Of a DNA stretch of 64,000 nucleotides, positions 5,527 to 13,477 are shown piece after piece; position 1 is the stretch's first letter, and each line of letters opens with the position of its first letter. The position numbers and the translations under genes are program-made. The DNA is from Thermomonas sp. (GTDB lineage: Bacteria > Pseudomonadota > Gammaproteobacteria > Xanthomonadales > Xanthomonadaceae). The stretch spans positions 423,433-487,432 of the forward strand of contig JADKKV010000001.1 in assembly GCA_016720345.1 (NCBI GenBank), written 5' to 3'. The notes beneath the pieces were generated by a model. The model made no database searches. It saw only the letters and a program-made list of their open reading frames with translations, and had not been told where the DNA came from.

Positions 5527-5658
5527 CGCCGGCAGTCTCCCCTCTTCACCGGGTCATTACAAGTCATTGATTGTGAACGCAGGACGCCCCGTGGATGGGC
5601 CATCGCCGCTAGACTGCACGACCGGCCCGGATTACCCGCCGCGCCCCGGAGAGAGAGC

Positions 5659-7038
5659 ATGAGCGCCGAAACAACCGAAGCCGCGCCCGCCACCGGCGCC
5701 CGCGGCAAGCTGTACATCCAGACCCACGGCTGCCAGATGAACGAGTACGACTCGGCGAAGATGGCCGACGTCCTGGCCGCCGCGGACGGCATGGAACTGA
5801 CCACGATCGCCGAAGAAGCCGACGTTATCCTGGTCAATACCTGCTCGATTCGCGAAAAAGCCCAGGAAAAGGTGTTCAGCCAGCTGGGCCGCTGGAAATC
5901 GCTGAAGAAGGACGGACGTCCGGTGCTGATCGGGGTCGGCGGCTGCGTGGCCTCGCAGGAGGGCGCCGCCATCGTCAAGCGCGCGCCCTACGTGGACCTG
6001 GTGTTTGGCCCGCAGACCCTGCACCGGCTTCCGGAACTGATCCGCGACCGCCGCGCCTCCGGGCTGCCGCAGGTCGACATCAGCTTCCCCGAAATCGAGA
6101 AGTTCGACCGCCTGCCGGAGCCGCGCGCAGACGGTCCGAGCGCGTTCGTCTCGATCATGGAGGGTTGCAGCAAGTACTGCAGTTTCTGCGTGGTCCCCTA
6201 CACCCGCGGCGAGGAAGTCAGCCGCCCGTTCGAGGACGTGCTGGTCGAAGTGGCGCAACTGGCCGCGCAGGGCGTGCGCGAGGTCAACCTGCTCGGCCAG
6301 AACGTGAACGCCTATCGCGGGCCGTATGGCGAAGGCGAATTCGCGGACCTCGGCCTGCTGATCCGCGCGATCGCCGAGATCGAGGGCATCGGCCGGATCC
6401 GGTTCACCACCTCGCACCCGCTGGAGTTCTCGGACGCGCTGGTGGAGGCCTACCGCGACGTACCGAAGCTGGCCAACTACCTGCACCTGCCGGTGCAGTC
6501 CGGCAGCGACCGCATCCTGGCCGCGATGAAGCGCGGCTACACCGCGCTGGAGTTCAAGCAGAAGATCCGCAAGCTGCGCGCGGTGCGGCCGGACATCGCG
6601 ATTTCCTCGGATTTCATCGTCGGCTTCCCGGGCGAGTCCGAGGCGGATTTCGACAAGACCATGAAGCTGATCGAAGACGTCGGCTTCGACCAGAGCTTCA
6701 GCTTCATCTACTCGCGCCGCCCAGGGACCCCGGCCGCGGACCTCGAGGACAATGTCGCCGATGCCGACAAGCATGCGCGGCTGACGCGCCTGCAGGCGCA
6801 CATCAACGGCCACAGCCTTGCGCTCTCCAGGGCGATGGTCGGCAGCATCCAGCAGGTGCTGGTCACCGGCGTTTCCCGCAGGGACGCGAACGAACTCACC
6901 GGCAAGACCGAGAACATGCGCCAGCTGAACTTCGCGGGCGATCCGCGCCTGATCGGCCAGTTCGTCCCGGTGGTGGTCACCGAGGCGTTGCCGAACTCGC
7001 TGCGCGGGCGGCTGGCCGGCGGGGCGACCGCGGGCTGA
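5659..7038 (+). CDS. miaB: tRNA-2-methylthio-N6-dimethylallyladenosine synthase MiaB
   Basis: MiaB is a radical-SAM enzyme that adds a methylthio group to i6A37 of tRNAs reading UNN codons. The 459-residue protein has the N-terminal UPF0004 domain with cluster cysteines in [20 protein letters not shown] and GVGGCVASQ. The central radical-SAM domain carries [16 protein letters not shown] (the CxxxCxxC motif), and a TRAM domain lies at the C terminus. The ATG at 5659 has a strong GGAGAG ribosome-binding site; the frame remains open further upstream without homology. In enterobacteria miaB is followed directly by phoH (ybeZ); here a minus-strand amidohydrolase lies between them. Confidence 0.97.
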
Positions 7039-8727: not shown

Positions 8728-8829
8728 CCCGGATCCCCTCGCGTCGCGGAACCCGGACATTGGCGCAAGCCGTGGCGAGAGGCAAGCCGCGAATGGCATG
8801 CCCCCGGACGGCGCGCTACCCTTCCCGGC

Positions 8830-9819
8830 ATGCAGACCCAACGCGATTTCACCCTCGAACCCGATGACCTCGAACGCCTGGCCAACCTGTCCGGCCCGTT
8901 CGATGCGCACCTGCGGATGATCGAACTGCGGCTGGGCGTGGAGATCGCCAACCGCGGCAGCGTGTTCCGCGTCAGTGGCCGCGACGGCGACGCGGTGGCG
9001 CGTGGTGAGCGCCTGTTGCGCGAGCTGTACCAGGACGCCGCGTCGGAAACCCTGGACGAGCACGCCATCCACCTGCGGCTGGGCGCGTACGCCCGCGATG
9101 ACATCCCGGCGGTGCAAGCCCCGGACCACGTGCCGCAGGAGATCTCCGTGCGGGTCAAGCGCGGCAACGTGCGCGGGCGCGGGCCCAACCAGCAGAACTA
9201 CCTGCACGCGATCGCCAGCCACGACATCAACTTCGGCATCGGCCCGGCCGGCACCGGCAAGACCTTCCTCGCGGTGGCGATGGCGGTGGACGCGCTCAAC
9301 CAGTCGCGCGTGCAGCGGCTGATCCTGGTGCGCCCGGCGGTCGAGGCCGGCGAGAAGCTCGGCTTCCTGCCCGGCGACCTGACCCAGAAGGTGGACCCGT
9401 ACCTGCGCCCCCTGTACGACGCGCTGTACGAGATGCTCGGGGTGGAAAAGGTGGCGCGGCTGCTGGAGAAGAACGTCATCGAGATCGCCCCGCTCGCCTA
9501 CATGCGCGGGCGCACCCTCAACGACGCCTTCGTGATCCTGGACGAAGCGCAGAACACCAGCATCGAGCAGATGAAGATGTTCCTGACCCGGCTCGGCTTC
9601 GGCAGCACCGCGGTGATCACCGGCGACATGACCCAGATCGACCTGCCCAAGCACCAGAAGTCCGGGCTGAAGGACGCGGTGGACGTGCTGCGCGGCGTCG
9701 ACGGCGTGCACTTCACCTTCTTCGAATCGCGCGACGTGGTCCGCCACCCGCTGGTGGCGCGCATCGTCAACGCCTACGAGGCGCGCGACGCGAAGGATGG
9801 ACAGGCCGGTTCGGCGTAA
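8830..9819 (+). CDS. ybeZ: PhoH family ATPase (YbeZ)
   Basis: This 329-residue P-loop ATPase has Walker A GPAGTGKT, Walker B VILDEAQN and the C-terminal PhoH signature (TGDMTQIDLPKHQKSGL). A short N-terminal KH-like region (residues 1-110) precedes it, as in YbeZ proteins linked to rRNA processing together with YbeY. The ATG at 8830 gives the family N terminus (TQRDFTLEPDD). The frame is open well upstream but antisense to the amidohydrolase. The gene ends 10 bp before ybeY, and the ybeZ-ybeY-ybeX order is conserved across gammaproteobacteria. Confidence 0.95.
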   Translation: MQTQRDFTLEPDDLERLANLSGPFDAHLRMIELRLGVEIANRGSVFRVSGRDGDAVARGERLLRELYQDAASETLDEHAIHLRLGAYARDDIPAVQAPDHVPQEISVRVKRGNVRGRGPNQQNYLHAIASHDINFGIGPAGTGKTFLAVAMAVDALNQSRVQRLILVRPAVEAGEKLGFLPGDLTQKVDPYLRPLYDALYEMLGVEKVARLLEKNVIEIAPLAYMRGRTLNDAFVILDEAQNTSIEQMKMFLTRLGFGSTAVITGDMTQIDLPKHQKSGLKDAVDVLRGVDGVHFTFFESRDVVRHPLVARIVNAYEARDAKDGQAGSA

Positions 9820-9829
9820 GATCGCGGGC

Positions 9830-10312
9830 ATGACCAAGGGTCCCGTCCGCCTCGATGTCGCCGTCGGCTACGCGGTGCCGCGCGCCGGGATCCCCGCCGC
9901 GGTGAGCTTCCGCAAGTGGGTCGCGGCGGCGCTGGCCGGCCGCATCCGCGAGGCCGACCTCGCGATCCGCGTGGTGGACGAGAAGGAAGGCCGCGCGTTC
10001 AACCACCACTACCGCGGCAAGGACTACGCCACCAACGTGCTCAGCTTCCCCGCGGAATTGCCCGAGGGGCTGCCGGAGGGCGTCAGGCTGCCGCTGCTGG
10101 GCGACCTGGTGCTGTGCGCGCCGGTGATCGCGAAGGAGGCCGCCGCGCAGGGCAAGCCGCTGGCGGCGCACTACGCGCACCTGACCGTGCACGGCACCCT
10201 GCACCTGCTCGGCTGGGACCACGAGGATCCGCGCGAGGCCGAATGCATGGAGCAACTGGAGCGCGGCATCCTGGCCGGACTGGGCCTGCCGGACCCGTAT
10301 ATCGAGCGTTGA
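9830..10312 (+). CDS. ybeY: Endoribonuclease YbeY (rRNA maturation)
   Basis: YbeY is a zinc-dependent endoribonuclease involved in 16S rRNA 3'-end maturation and 70S quality control. The 160-residue protein contains the invariant metal-binding motif HGTLHLLGWDH near residues 120-130 and the conserved segment RGKDYATNVLSFP. The ATG at 9830 lies 10 bp after the ybeZ stop. An earlier in-frame ATG at 9797 would overlap ybeZ and add 11 unconserved residues. Confidence 0.95.
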   Translation: MTKGPVRLDVAVGYAVPRAGIPAAVSFRKWVAAALAGRIREADLAIRVVDEKEGRAFNHHYRGKDYATNVLSFPAELPEGLPEGVRLPLLGDLVLCAPVIAKEAAAQGKPLAAHYAHLTVHGTLHLLGWDHEDPREAECMEQLERGILAGLGLPDPYIER

Positions 10313-10382: not shown

Positions 10383-11264
10383 ATGTCCGAGGACGACAGT
10401 CGTCACGAAACCGCCGACTCCGCGGAGCGTTCCGCCGACAAGCCGCGCCGCTCCTGGCTGGACCGCATCAGCGCCGCCCTGTCCGGCGAGCCGACCAGCC
10501 GCGAGGACCTGGTCGAACTGCTGCGCGACGTGCAGGCCGACGGCCTGATCGCCGCCGACACCCTGCGCATGATGGAAGGCGCGATCGCGGTTTCCGACAT
10601 GAGCGTGGGCGACGTGATGGTGCCGCGCGCGCAGATGGTGGCGCTGCCGGCCGACGCGCGCTTCCTGGACCTGATGAAGGAAGTGGTGGAATCCGGCCAC
10701 TCGCGGTTCCCGGTCCACGGCGAGGACAAGGACGAGATCCTCGGCATCCTGCTGGCCAAGGACCTGCTGCGCGGCGTGGTCGCCGACAACGGCCCGGGCA
10801 CGATCCGCGAACTGCTGCGCCCGGCGGTGCTGATCCCGGAATCGAAGAAGCTCAACGTGCTGCTGCGCGAGTTCCGCCAGTCGCGCAACCACATGGCGAT
10901 CGTGATCGACGAATACGGCGGGGTGGCCGGGCTGGTCACCATCGAGGACGTGCTGGAGCAGATCGTCGGCGACATCGACGACGAGCACGACGAGGCCGAG
11001 GACGGATCGACCCTGATCGCGGCGCAGGCGGACGGCCAGTTCGTGGTCGATGCGCTGACCCCGATCGCCGACTTCAACGAACGCTTCGGCGCCGACTTCG
11101 ACGACGACGAGTACGACACCATCGGCGGCCTGGTCACCAATGCCATCGGCCACCTGCCGGAGGCCGGCGAGGAACTGACCCTGGGCCGCTTCGTGTTCCG
11201 CGTCGCCCGCGCCGACGCACGCCGCCTGCATGCGCTGCACGTGGGCGTGCATGCGGATCACTGA
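10383..11264 (+). CDS. ybeX: CorC/YbeX family CBS-domain protein
   Basis: This 293-residue soluble protein has two CBS domains (about residues 70-190, including DVMVPRAQMVALP and AIVIDEYGGVAGLVTIEDVLEQIVGDI) and a C-terminal CorC_HlyC FAD-like domain (FNERFGADFDDDEYDTIGG). It lacks the DUF21 membrane domain present in the larger homologue at 26441. YbeX/CorC proteins are tied to magnesium/cobalt homeostasis and ribosome maturation. The end overlaps the next gene by 14 bp. In E. coli the next gene at this position is lnt. Confidence 0.94.
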   Translation: MSEDDSRHETADSAERSADKPRRSWLDRISAALSGEPTSREDLVELLRDVQADGLIAADTLRMMEGAIAVSDMSVGDVMVPRAQMVALPADARFLDLMKEVVESGHSRFPVHGEDKDEILGILLAKDLLRGVVADNGPGTIRELLRPAVLIPESKKLNVLLREFRQSRNHMAIVIDEYGGVAGLVTIEDVLEQIVGDIDDEHDEAEDGSTLIAAQADGQFVVDALTPIADFNERFGADFDDDEYDTIGGLVTNAIGHLPEAGEELTLGRFVFRVARADARRLHALHVGVHADH

Positions 11265-12447
11265 GGCGCTGCGCTTCGCCCTGTTGCTGGCGCTCGCGTT
11301 GTCCGCGGGCCGGGTGCATGCGCAAGCCGCGGACACTGGGCAGCCACCGCGGATCGGGGTGGTCACCATGGGGCCCGGCGACGTGTTCTGGGAACGCTTC
11401 GGCCACGACGCGATCGTGGTCGACGACCCCGCGCGCGGCGAACCGATCTCGTACAACTTCGGCTTCTTCGACCTGGCGGAAGACGGCTTCATCGGCCGCT
11501 TCGTGCGTGGCGAGATGCAGTACAGGCTGGTCGCGTTGCCGCTGGACGACGACATGCAGTACTACCGCGAGGTCGGGCGCGGTGCGTCGCTGCAGTGGCT
11601 GGCGCTGGAGCCCGCGCAGGCGCGCCAGCTCGCCGCCGACCTGGCCGAGAACGCGAAGCCGGAAAACGCGCGCTACCGCTACGACTACTTCACCGACAAT
11701 TGCGCCACCCGCGTGCGCGATGCGCTCGACCGCGCGCTCGGCGGCAACCTGCGCCGGCAGATGGAACCGCGTTCGAGCGGCGACAGCTATCGCAGCGAAT
11801 CGGTGCGGTTGGCCTCGCCCGAACCGTGGATGTGGCTGCTGTTCGACGTCGGCCTGGGGCCCTACGGCGACCGCCCGCTGTCGCGCTGGGAGCAGGCATT
11901 CCTGCCGCGCCGGCTGGCCGACGACGTGCGCGACGCGAAGCTGCCCGACGGCCGCCCGCTGGTCGTCGCCGAACAGCAACTGCTGCCGCAACGGCAACCG
12001 GCGGAACCCGACGAACGCCCCCGTCACGCATGGCCCTGGCTGGCCCTGGGGCTGGCGCTGGCGGCATCGATCCTGGCCTGCGCGCGCCGCGCGCCGCGCC
12101 TGCTCGGCGGCGTGGGGCTGGGCTTCTGGCTGCTGTGCGGCGCGGTCGGGCTGGTGCTGCTGCTGGGCTGGGGATTCACCGCGCACCGCGCGCTGTGGGC
12201 GAACCGCAACCTGCTGCTGTTCAACCCGCTATGCCTGCTGCTGTTGCCGGGTGGATGGGCGTTGCTGCGCGGGCACGCCGGTTCCGGCCGCTTCCGATCG
12301 TTGCTGGTTGCGGTTGCCGCGCTCGCCGCCGTGGCGCTGCTGCCGCTGTGGCTGCAGGCAATGCCGCAACGCAACGGCCCCTGGATCGCGCTGTTGCTGC
12401 CGGTGCACGCGGCGTTCGCGTGGTGCCGCGGCCGGCGCAAGCCTTGA
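11251..12447 (+). CDS. DUF4105/Lnb-like membrane protein, candidate lipoprotein N-acyltransferase
   Basis: Seen: 398 residues with an N-terminal signal/anchor (about 7-24), a periplasmic domain to about 255, then roughly five hydrophobic helices to the C terminus. The periplasmic domain has the DUF4105 hallmarks: His52 in FWERFGHDAIVV, SYNFGFFD, and Cys151 in FTDNCATRVRDAL, which could form a Cys-His pair. Known: as I recall, this domain was renamed Lnb_N after a Bacteroides protein of this type was identified as a lipoprotein N-acyltransferase. Inferred: its position directly behind ybeX, overlapping by 14 bp where lnt lies in enterobacteria, makes the same role plausible. The first ATG of the frame is at 11230, but 11251 starts the signal peptide. 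The enzymatic role is not shown by sequence alone. Confidence 0.75.
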   Translation: MRITEALRFALLLALALSAGRVHAQAADTGQPPRIGVVTMGPGDVFWERFGHDAIVVDDPARGEPISYNFGFFDLAEDGFIGRFVRGEMQYRLVALPLDDDMQYYREVGRGASLQWLALEPAQARQLAADLAENAKPENARYRYDYFTDNCATRVRDALDRALGGNLRRQMEPRSSGDSYRSESVRLASPEPWMWLLFDVGLGPYGDRPLSRWEQAFLPRRLADDVRDAKLPDGRPLVVAEQQLLPQRQPAEPDERPRHAWPWLALGLALAASILACARRAPRLLGGVGLGFWLLCGAVGLVLLLGWGFTAHRALWANRNLLLFNPLCLLLLPGGWALLRGHAGSGRFRSLLVAVAALAAVALLPLWLQAMPQRNGPWIALLLPVHAAFAWCRGRRKP

Positions 12448-12478
12448 TGGACCCGCGCCCGCGATGCAGGATGCGGCG

Positions 12479-13477
12479 ATGAACACGCCCGCCACCGCCC
12501 TGCCCGCCTGCGTGGTGAACTGCGCGGCCTACGACCGCGACGGCCACCGCCGCGACATCAGCCTGGACGCGGTCAGCGACGTGCTGGCGGTGGACGACGG
12601 CAGCTTCGTCTGGGTCGGCCTGTACGAGCCGGAGGAAGGCCTGCTGGAGAAGATGCAGGAGGAGTTCGGGCTGCACGACCTCGCCATCGAGGACGCCCAG
12701 CACGCGCACCAGCGGCCGAAGCTGGAGGCGTTCGGCAACAGCCTGTTCATCGCCGTGCATACCGCGCAGCGGATCGACGCGCATGTCCGCTTCGGCGAGA
12801 CCCACCTGTTCGTGGGCCCGCGCTTCCTGGTCACCGTGCGCCACGGCGCATCGCTCACCTTCTCGATCGTGCGCGACCGCCTGGAGCGGGACCCCGCGGC
12901 GCTCGCGCACGGGCCCAGCGTCGCCGTGCACGCGGTGCTGGACTTCATCGTCGACAACTACCAGCCGATCGTGTCCGACTTCGAGGACGAGCTCGACATG
13001 CTGGAGCAGGACGTGTTCGCCGAAACCTACAAGCGCGGCACGATCCGGCGCCTGTACGACCTGCGCAAGGAACTGACCCGGATGCGGATGGCGGTGGCGC
13101 CGATGCAGGACATCCTGTCGCAGCTGATCCGCACCCCGGTGGTGGCGATCCCGGACGAGGTCAAGCCGTATTTCCGCGACGTGCTCGACCACGTGGCCCG
13201 CGTCGGCGACAGCATCGACACCCTGCGCGAGATGGTGTCGGCGGCGATGAACGTGAACCTGTCGCTGGTCACCGTGGCGCAGGGCGAGATCGTCAAGAAG
13301 CTGGCCGGCTGGGCCGGCCTGCTGGCCGCACCCACGTTGATCACCAGCTGGTACGGCATGAACTTCGAACACATGCCGGAGCTGCACGGGCCTTACAGCT
13401 ACGGGATCCTGATCGGCGGCGTTGCCCTGTCCTGCGTGCTGCTGTACCGCTACCTGCGCAAGATCCGCTGGCTGTAG
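12479..13477 (+). CDS. corA: CorA family magnesium/cobalt transporter
   Basis: This 332-residue protein has a large cytoplasmic N-terminal domain, a long stalk helix and two C-terminal membrane helices. The selectivity signature GMN is at about 293-295 (WYGMNFEHMPEL), followed by the second helix (YGILIGGVALSCVLLYRYL) and a basic KIRWL tail. It transports Mg2+ (Co2+/Ni2+) as a pentamer. ATG 12479 gives the usual N terminus; another ATG lies 15 bp upstream. It follows the Lnb-like gene by 31 bp, so ybeX, lnb-like and corA may share a transcript. It converges on the DUF819 gene with only 13 bp between. Confidence 0.94.
   Translation: MNTPATALPACVVNCAAYDRDGHRRDISLDAVSDVLAVDDGSFVWVGLYEPEEGLLEKMQEEFGLHDLAIEDAQHAHQRPKLEAFGNSLFIAVHTAQRIDAHVRFGETHLFVGPRFLVTVRHGASLTFSIVRDRLERDPAALAHGPSVAVHAVLDFIVDNYQPIVSDFEDELDMLEQDVFAETYKRGTIRRLYDLRKELTRMRMAVAPMQDILSQLIRTPVVAIPDEVKPYFRDVLDHVARVGDSIDTLREMVSAAMNVNLSLVTVAQGEIVKKLAGWAGLLAAPTLITSWYGMNFEHMPELHGPYSYGILIGGVALSCVLLYRYLRKIRWL

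Follow-up and report, generated by a model that had tools for sequence, protein, structure and literature searches.

A candidate Lnb-type lipoprotein N-acyltransferase in the position of lnt behind ybeX in Thermomonas sp. and related bacteria

In Escherichia coli K-12, the genes are arranged in the order miaB-ybeZ-ybeY-ybeX-lnt, and Lnt is usually regarded as an enzyme that is widespread in Proteobacteria and essential to them. In the studied stretch of Thermomonas sp. DNA (GenBank assembly GCA_016720345.1, contig JADKKV010000001.1, positions 423,433 to 487,432, forward strand; 64,000 nucleotides, hereafter the window), ybeX is followed by a gene for a 398-residue DUF4105 protein. The locus raises the question of what this protein does and which enzyme completes lipoproteins in this bacterium and its relatives. 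The original prediction, made from the letters of the window, had named the E. coli gene order correctly and had likened the protein to Lnb, the lipoprotein N-acyltransferase of Bacteroides (Armbruster et al., 2024, PNAS, as cited in the available parts of PMC12994826 and PMC13103446). Profile matches, the predicted fold, invariant cysteine and histidine residues, the location next to ybeX and the way in which the gene and lnt replace each other there support this reading: the protein is a member of the Lnb domain family and very likely moves a third acyl chain, taken from a phospholipid, to the N-terminal cysteine of lipoproteins, as Lnt does in E. coli. The gene and the residues in question are located as follows.

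11251..12447, forward strand: Lnb-type (DUF4105) gene, 398 residues, Pfam Lnb_N and 5TMH_Lnb above cut-off
11404..11406, forward strand: codon of His52, putative catalytic histidine, H in 200/200 aligned rows
11701..11703, forward strand: codon of Cys151, putative catalytic nucleophile, C in 200/200 aligned rows
12184..12228, forward strand: residues 312-326, loop from C-terminal helix 2 to C-terminal helix 3; His312, Asn318 and Pro326 (mostly also Asn320) are conserved

Both Lnb domains of Pfam were found above their gathering cut-offs. Lnb_N (PF13387) covers residues 37-172 with 66.4 bits (cut-off 22.2), inside the segment 30-255 where a resemblance to Lnb had been expected, and 5TMH_Lnb (PF25221) covers residues 263-383 with 37.1 bits (cut-off 25.2), in agreement with the proposed layout of Bacteroides Lnb. 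A Pfam scan at E ≤ 1 detected neither CN_hydrolase nor LNT_N in the protein. The NCBIfam Lnb equivalog model NF051878 gave 164.2 bits (E 4e-48), with a model length of 394 against 398 residues here. The likeness to the Bacteroides enzyme consists of two common Pfam domain families, a similar length and the conserved histidine and cysteine of NlpC/P60 proteins, and the difference of a distant score, a place in the ybeX slot of Gammaproteobacteria and an activity that is predicted.

Three alignments have His52 and Cys151 in every row: 81/81 in the family, 99/99 in alignment A1 and 200/200 order-wide (some species enter the last alignment twice, and its row L076 is a 178-residue fragment); the pair picked out in the original prediction is thus kept without loss in any aligned relative. 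In the window's protein and 39 rows from other families, His312, Asn318 and Pro326 occur in 40/40 rows and Asn320 in 36/40, and in A1 Asn318 and Pro326 are invariant and His312 is present in at least 90% of rows. The AlphaFold model (predicted local distance difference test score, pLDDT, 94.2) displays an N-terminal helix at residues 2-23, likely a signal peptide, followed by a domain at residues ~29-249 that is likely periplasmic and of the permuted NlpC/P60 type, and by five C-terminal helices (261-280, 282-309, 326-339, 346-361 and 376-394). The two-part architecture foreseen for the protein is therefore seen in the model; a hydropathy scan at 1.6 picks up four C-terminal helices out of five and misses the N-terminal one, and the loop charge counts follow the positive-inside rule only in part. 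VIA-align matched the model to YiiX, TseH and a B. cereus entry named 'cysteine peptidase', and the modelled N-terminal domain belongs to the permuted NlpC/P60 (LRAT/YiiX-like) fold. A sequence search of the PDB with the protein returned no relative (best E 1.1).

Periplasmic cysteine peptidases and peptidoglycan hydrolases are also members of the NlpC/P60 superfamily, and with the B. cereus entry among the fold matches such a role could be considered. It is highly improbable, since the matches fall in the permuted branch, described as lipid-acting in the available part of PMC12994826, and a soluble cell-wall hydrolase would not be expected to have five predicted helices at its C-terminus that carry invariant polar residues.

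The position of the gene provides evidence of another kind. Of the loci fetched from the family, 80/80 have ybeX as the immediate upstream neighbour on the same strand; the gap, -50 to 729 bases, depends on the start codons chosen. These loci are the listed Lnb_N matches of 59.9 to 87.2 bits, apart from the window's own and from those of lower score. The same neighbour was found in a further 20/20 family loci picked from 5TMH_Lnb matches, in 80/80 named loci (partly of the same species, one being a Xanthomonas sp. metagenome-assembled genome, L164) and in 38/39 loci selected from many more matches in ten other families. The linkage of the Lnb-type gene to ybeX exceeds chance. The sole exception among the 39 is locus L353 of genome G271, with no ybeX nearby; this genome also has an Lnt-like protein in a 560-residue frame elsewhere (L235), without ybeX within that short locus.

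The slot behind ybeX is shared with lnt itself. Among 30 LNT_N loci, fetched from the 39 genomes of the order sample with this domain above cut-off, an E. coli-like Lnt (more than 100 bits to E. coli Lnt) was found in three genomes, G123, G133 and G135. Each of these is Lnb-negative, with lnt directly behind ybeX. The probability of such a coincidence under random placement of the three is 1e-4 among 200 genomes and 6e-6 among the 159 good genomes, and since G123 and G133 share one genus, they are to be counted as two events rather than three. Thus, two unrelated enzymes, Lnb-type protein and Lnt, swap in place behind ybeX; E. coli Lnt resembles the Lnb-type protein in position and likely in the reaction, but shares no Pfam domain with it and uses other catalytic residues. 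This exchange is evidence for the function of Lnb from position, independent of sequence similarity.

Lnb-bearing families surround the Lnt-bearing family f6 in the ybeX tree, in which E. coli serves as outgroup; support for this nesting is modest (values of 83, 88 and 89 in the Shimodaira-Hasegawa-like approximate likelihood ratio test, SH-aLRT). The tree implies two changes overall, and f6 comprises two genomes of one genus. This nesting suggests that Lnb entered the ybeX slot early in the order and that Lnt later returned in f6. Lnb sequences mostly cluster by family, as vertical descent would give. The placement of G135 was not used, its branch being very long and its row filling 38% of the columns. 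In this genome, the miaB-phoH-ybeY-ybeX-lnt block (L365) is unusually divergent, with a ybeX about 30% identical to that of the window, and looks as if it had been acquired together with lnt.

The fold neighbours permit another explanation, in which the protein is a lipid-acting NlpC/P60 enzyme, such as a phospholipase or an enzyme of lysophospholipid or lipoprotein remodelling, and lipoproteins stay diacylated. YiiX, TseH and Tox-Act1 are grouped as permuted NlpC/P60 lipid-acting proteins in the available part of PMC12994826, where Tox-Act1, like TseH a secreted toxin, cleaves acyl chains from phospholipids, and diacyl anchors in Xanthomonas have been assumed in print (PMC10368991, in the part available). 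However, another lipid-related job leaves unexplained both the mutual replacement of canonical lnt and the Lnb-type gene in one slot and the similarity to the membrane domain of Lnb, and this explanation appears quite unlikely. We know of no five-helix Lnb membrane domain in Tox-Act1, TseH or YiiX.

No Lnt had been noticed in the window, and the sole Lnt-family match of the genome above cut-off is indeed located on another contig than ybeX. It is an 810-residue protein with 191.7 to 194.5 bits to TIGR00546 (cut-off 132.9), in which Pfam recognises LNT_N and CN_hydrolase and leaves about 335 further residues without a match. An alignment places residues of this protein opposite E267, K335 and C387 of the E. 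coli enzyme, and the Glu/Lys/Cys triad is kept. Lnt structures are present in the PDB; a phmmer search with the 810-residue protein gave no solved structure at E ≤ 1e-3. A genome devoid of any Lnt is ruled out by this match, and an E. coli-type Lnt is ruled out as well, the protein being of a long divergent type. TIGR00546 has 27 further matches above cut-off in the family, of which 26 are of the same type (616 to 917 bits to the 810-residue protein), and the remaining one is the E. coli-like Lnt of G102. The long type is patchy, occurring in 27/119 family genomes including that of the window. Its gene in the window's genome (L001:1354-3786, equivalent to L368:2868-5297 on contig C5 of G000) has a GDSL-lipase-like gene two genes upstream.

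The original prediction had named a clear Lnt elsewhere in the genome, combined with the lack of a structural match to Lnb, as the outcome that would speak against it. Only the first half occurs, in the form of this divergent protein. It could be supposed that the 810-residue protein carries out N-acylation in the window's species, with the Lnb-type protein as a back-up or serving other substrates; passing the Lnt equivalog cut-off and keeping the triad are in favour of this. But the gene lies away from ybeX, the protein extends well beyond the nitrilase domain and is far from E. coli Lnt, and its presence is patchy where Lnb is constant (TIGR00546 above cut-off in 2/4 and Lnb_N in 4/4 genomes examined in the genus), which makes such a division of roles unlikely. 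Since the divergent protein is present, Lnb may be combined with Lnt in the window's own species, where the two could overlap.

The distribution of both enzymes was studied in 119 genomes of the family, 200 of the order and 274 class-wide. Lnt was counted by TIGR00546 at its own cut-off and by LNT_N; TIGR00546 at E ≤ 0.001 was dropped as a marker, with 104/119 family genomes positive through weak nitrilase-like stretches. Family genomes contain Lnb_N in 115/119 cases and Lgt in 117/119, compared with 28/119 for TIGR00546 (27 long-type and one E. coli-like) and 31/119 for LNT_N. Order-wide, Lnb_N is found in 189/200 genomes, 5TMH_Lnb above cut-off in 153/200 and LNT_N above cut-off in 39/200. 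The class sample displays LNT_N in 250/274 genomes, Lnb_N in 65/274, many in frames of 600-700 residues, and 5TMH_Lnb above cut-off in 3/274, each of these a member of the window's family. With Lnb_N common and LNT_N scarce, the order is inverted relative to the class. LNT_N may even over-count, as phmmer ties 9/30 fetched order loci to neither the E. coli enzyme nor the long type. These nine proteins (L245-L247, L253, L257-L261; 470-551-residue frames) come from family f12 and are possibly an unrecognised LNT_N-domain family. Eleven order genomes are Lnb-negative; four of them have LNT_N (G123, G133, G135 and G165), and seven show neither domain, six of these being less than 90% complete. Two-domain Lnb-type proteins are also present in named Stenotrophomonas maltophilia and Xanthomonas, some annotated as 'lipoprotein N-acyltransferase Lnb domain-containing protein'. 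The Lnb-type enzyme likely stands in for Lnt across the order.

Many relatives (e.g., L006-L024, L030-L035) encode one or two extra DUF4105 proteins that the window's genome does not have, in classes near 160-176 bits (often 350-565-residue frames) and near 90-108 bits (often 620-760-residue frames). These other classes gave no match to the Lnb profile in 13 of 16 chosen loci and a short stretch only in three. Four genomes of genus g14 (G013, G061, G089 and G115) each have a second Lgt-family match above cut-off.

Several observations weigh against the N-acyltransferase assignment. The NF051878 score is far below the NCBI cut-off of 550, and by this profile the protein is homologous to the model but outside the NCBI same-function set. 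The likeness to Bacteroides Lnb is drawn from Pfam and NCBI models, and the His/Cys correspondence from the conserved NlpC/P60 core. With Foldseek alone, nothing matched at E ≤ 0.001, the best hit being TseH with E 0.025; since phospholipases and toxins use this fold as well, it leaves the acceptor unfixed by itself. Besides the Lnt-like protein of the window's genome, above the TIGR00546 cut-off and with conserved Glu/Lys/Cys, 27 of the 28 family genomes with TIGR00546 above cut-off also carry Lnb_N, so the two are not strictly exclusive, and G102 keeps an E. coli-like Lnt together with a ybeX-linked Lnb. Lastly, neither Lnb_N nor LNT_N was found in three genomes at least 90% complete (G201 of the order sample, 96%; G036 and G110 of the family sample, 94% each).

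The following route can be proposed for the Lnb-type protein. Lgt and signal peptidase II would leave a diacylglyceryl-cysteine with a free amino group. Cys151, aided by His52, would accept an acyl chain from a phospholipid, hold it as a thioester and pass it to this amino group. The conserved loop of His312, Asn318 and Pro326 probably borders the site on its membrane side. Export of the N-terminal domain and the five membrane helices are predicted.

The neighbouring genes assigned by Pfam are as follows.

5659..7038, forward strand: miaB, Pfam UPF0004, Radical_SAM and TRAM
8830..9819, forward strand: ybeZ (PhoH-like), Pfam PhoH 323.8 bits, ATG at 8830
9797..10312, forward strand: ybeY, Pfam YbeY 108.8 bits
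10383..11264, forward strand: ybeX (CorC/HlyC family), Pfam CBS and CorC_HlyC
12464..13477, forward strand: CorA-type transporter gene, downstream neighbour outside the acyltransferase, Pfam CorA 204.6 bits

The Pfam scans began at 8800 for the ybeZ frame and at 5653 for the miaB frame, and start codons were set afterwards. The ybeX product scores 283.6 bits with the NCBIfam CorC model, under the model cut-off of 379. With a start at 11251 and the end of ybeX at 11264, the Lnb-type gene overlaps ybeX by 14 bp, exactly as first described. The E. coli-like block assumed in the original prediction holds from ybeZ through ybeY and ybeX to the Lnb-type gene; miaB is set apart by an opposite-strand open reading frame of 557 residues (8727-7054), and the genes from miaB to Lnb are therefore not one unbroken operon. 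This frame has a signal-like N-terminus and is amidohydrolase-like by eye. The range 10383..13477 originally assigned to the feature covers ybeX and the Lnb-type gene correctly, and its last part, 12464-13477, is the separate CorA-type gene.

In the published record, as far as the available parts of the sources go, DUF4105 was listed as a papain-like family of unknown role (PMC10318531), Lnb was mentioned as a Bacteroidota enzyme (PMC13103446), and a 2026 paper described how Lnt has repeatedly taken the place of DUF4105 proteins, in three genomic contexts (PMC12994826). The words 'Xanthomonas', 'Lysobacter' and 'CorC' are absent from the main text of the latter. The literature search found no tie of Lnb to Xanthomonadales, although Fig 4B of PMC12994826 may show such a context, and no paper showing acyl transfer by a ybeX-linked member. 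Hence, the kind of protein is known; new within the literature searched are the order-wide inversion, the in-place exchange within the order and the disagreement with the published diacyl premise. This premise comes from a 2023 study in which no Lnt gene was found in Xanthomonas campestris B100, and LolA and LolB were modelled with diacyl anchors for this reason (PMC10368991, in the part available). The Lnb-type gene offers an answer to this puzzle; the premise probably rests on a missed enzyme and looks doubtful.

An order with important plant and opportunistic pathogens is mostly without canonical Lnt, and an unrelated protein fills the slot, which raises the testable question of whether its lipoproteins have two or three chains and by which enzyme. 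It is probable that nearly the whole order (Xanthomonas, Stenotrophomonas, Lysobacter and their kin) gave up canonical Lnt and that Lnb, in the slot of Lnt, finishes lipoproteins, the slot having been refilled both ways with Lnt back in a nested family. If Lnb replaces Lnt in this manner, lipoproteins of the order would be triacylated, against the printed diacyl premise, and Lnb would likely be an essential enzyme of the order, unrelated to Lnt.
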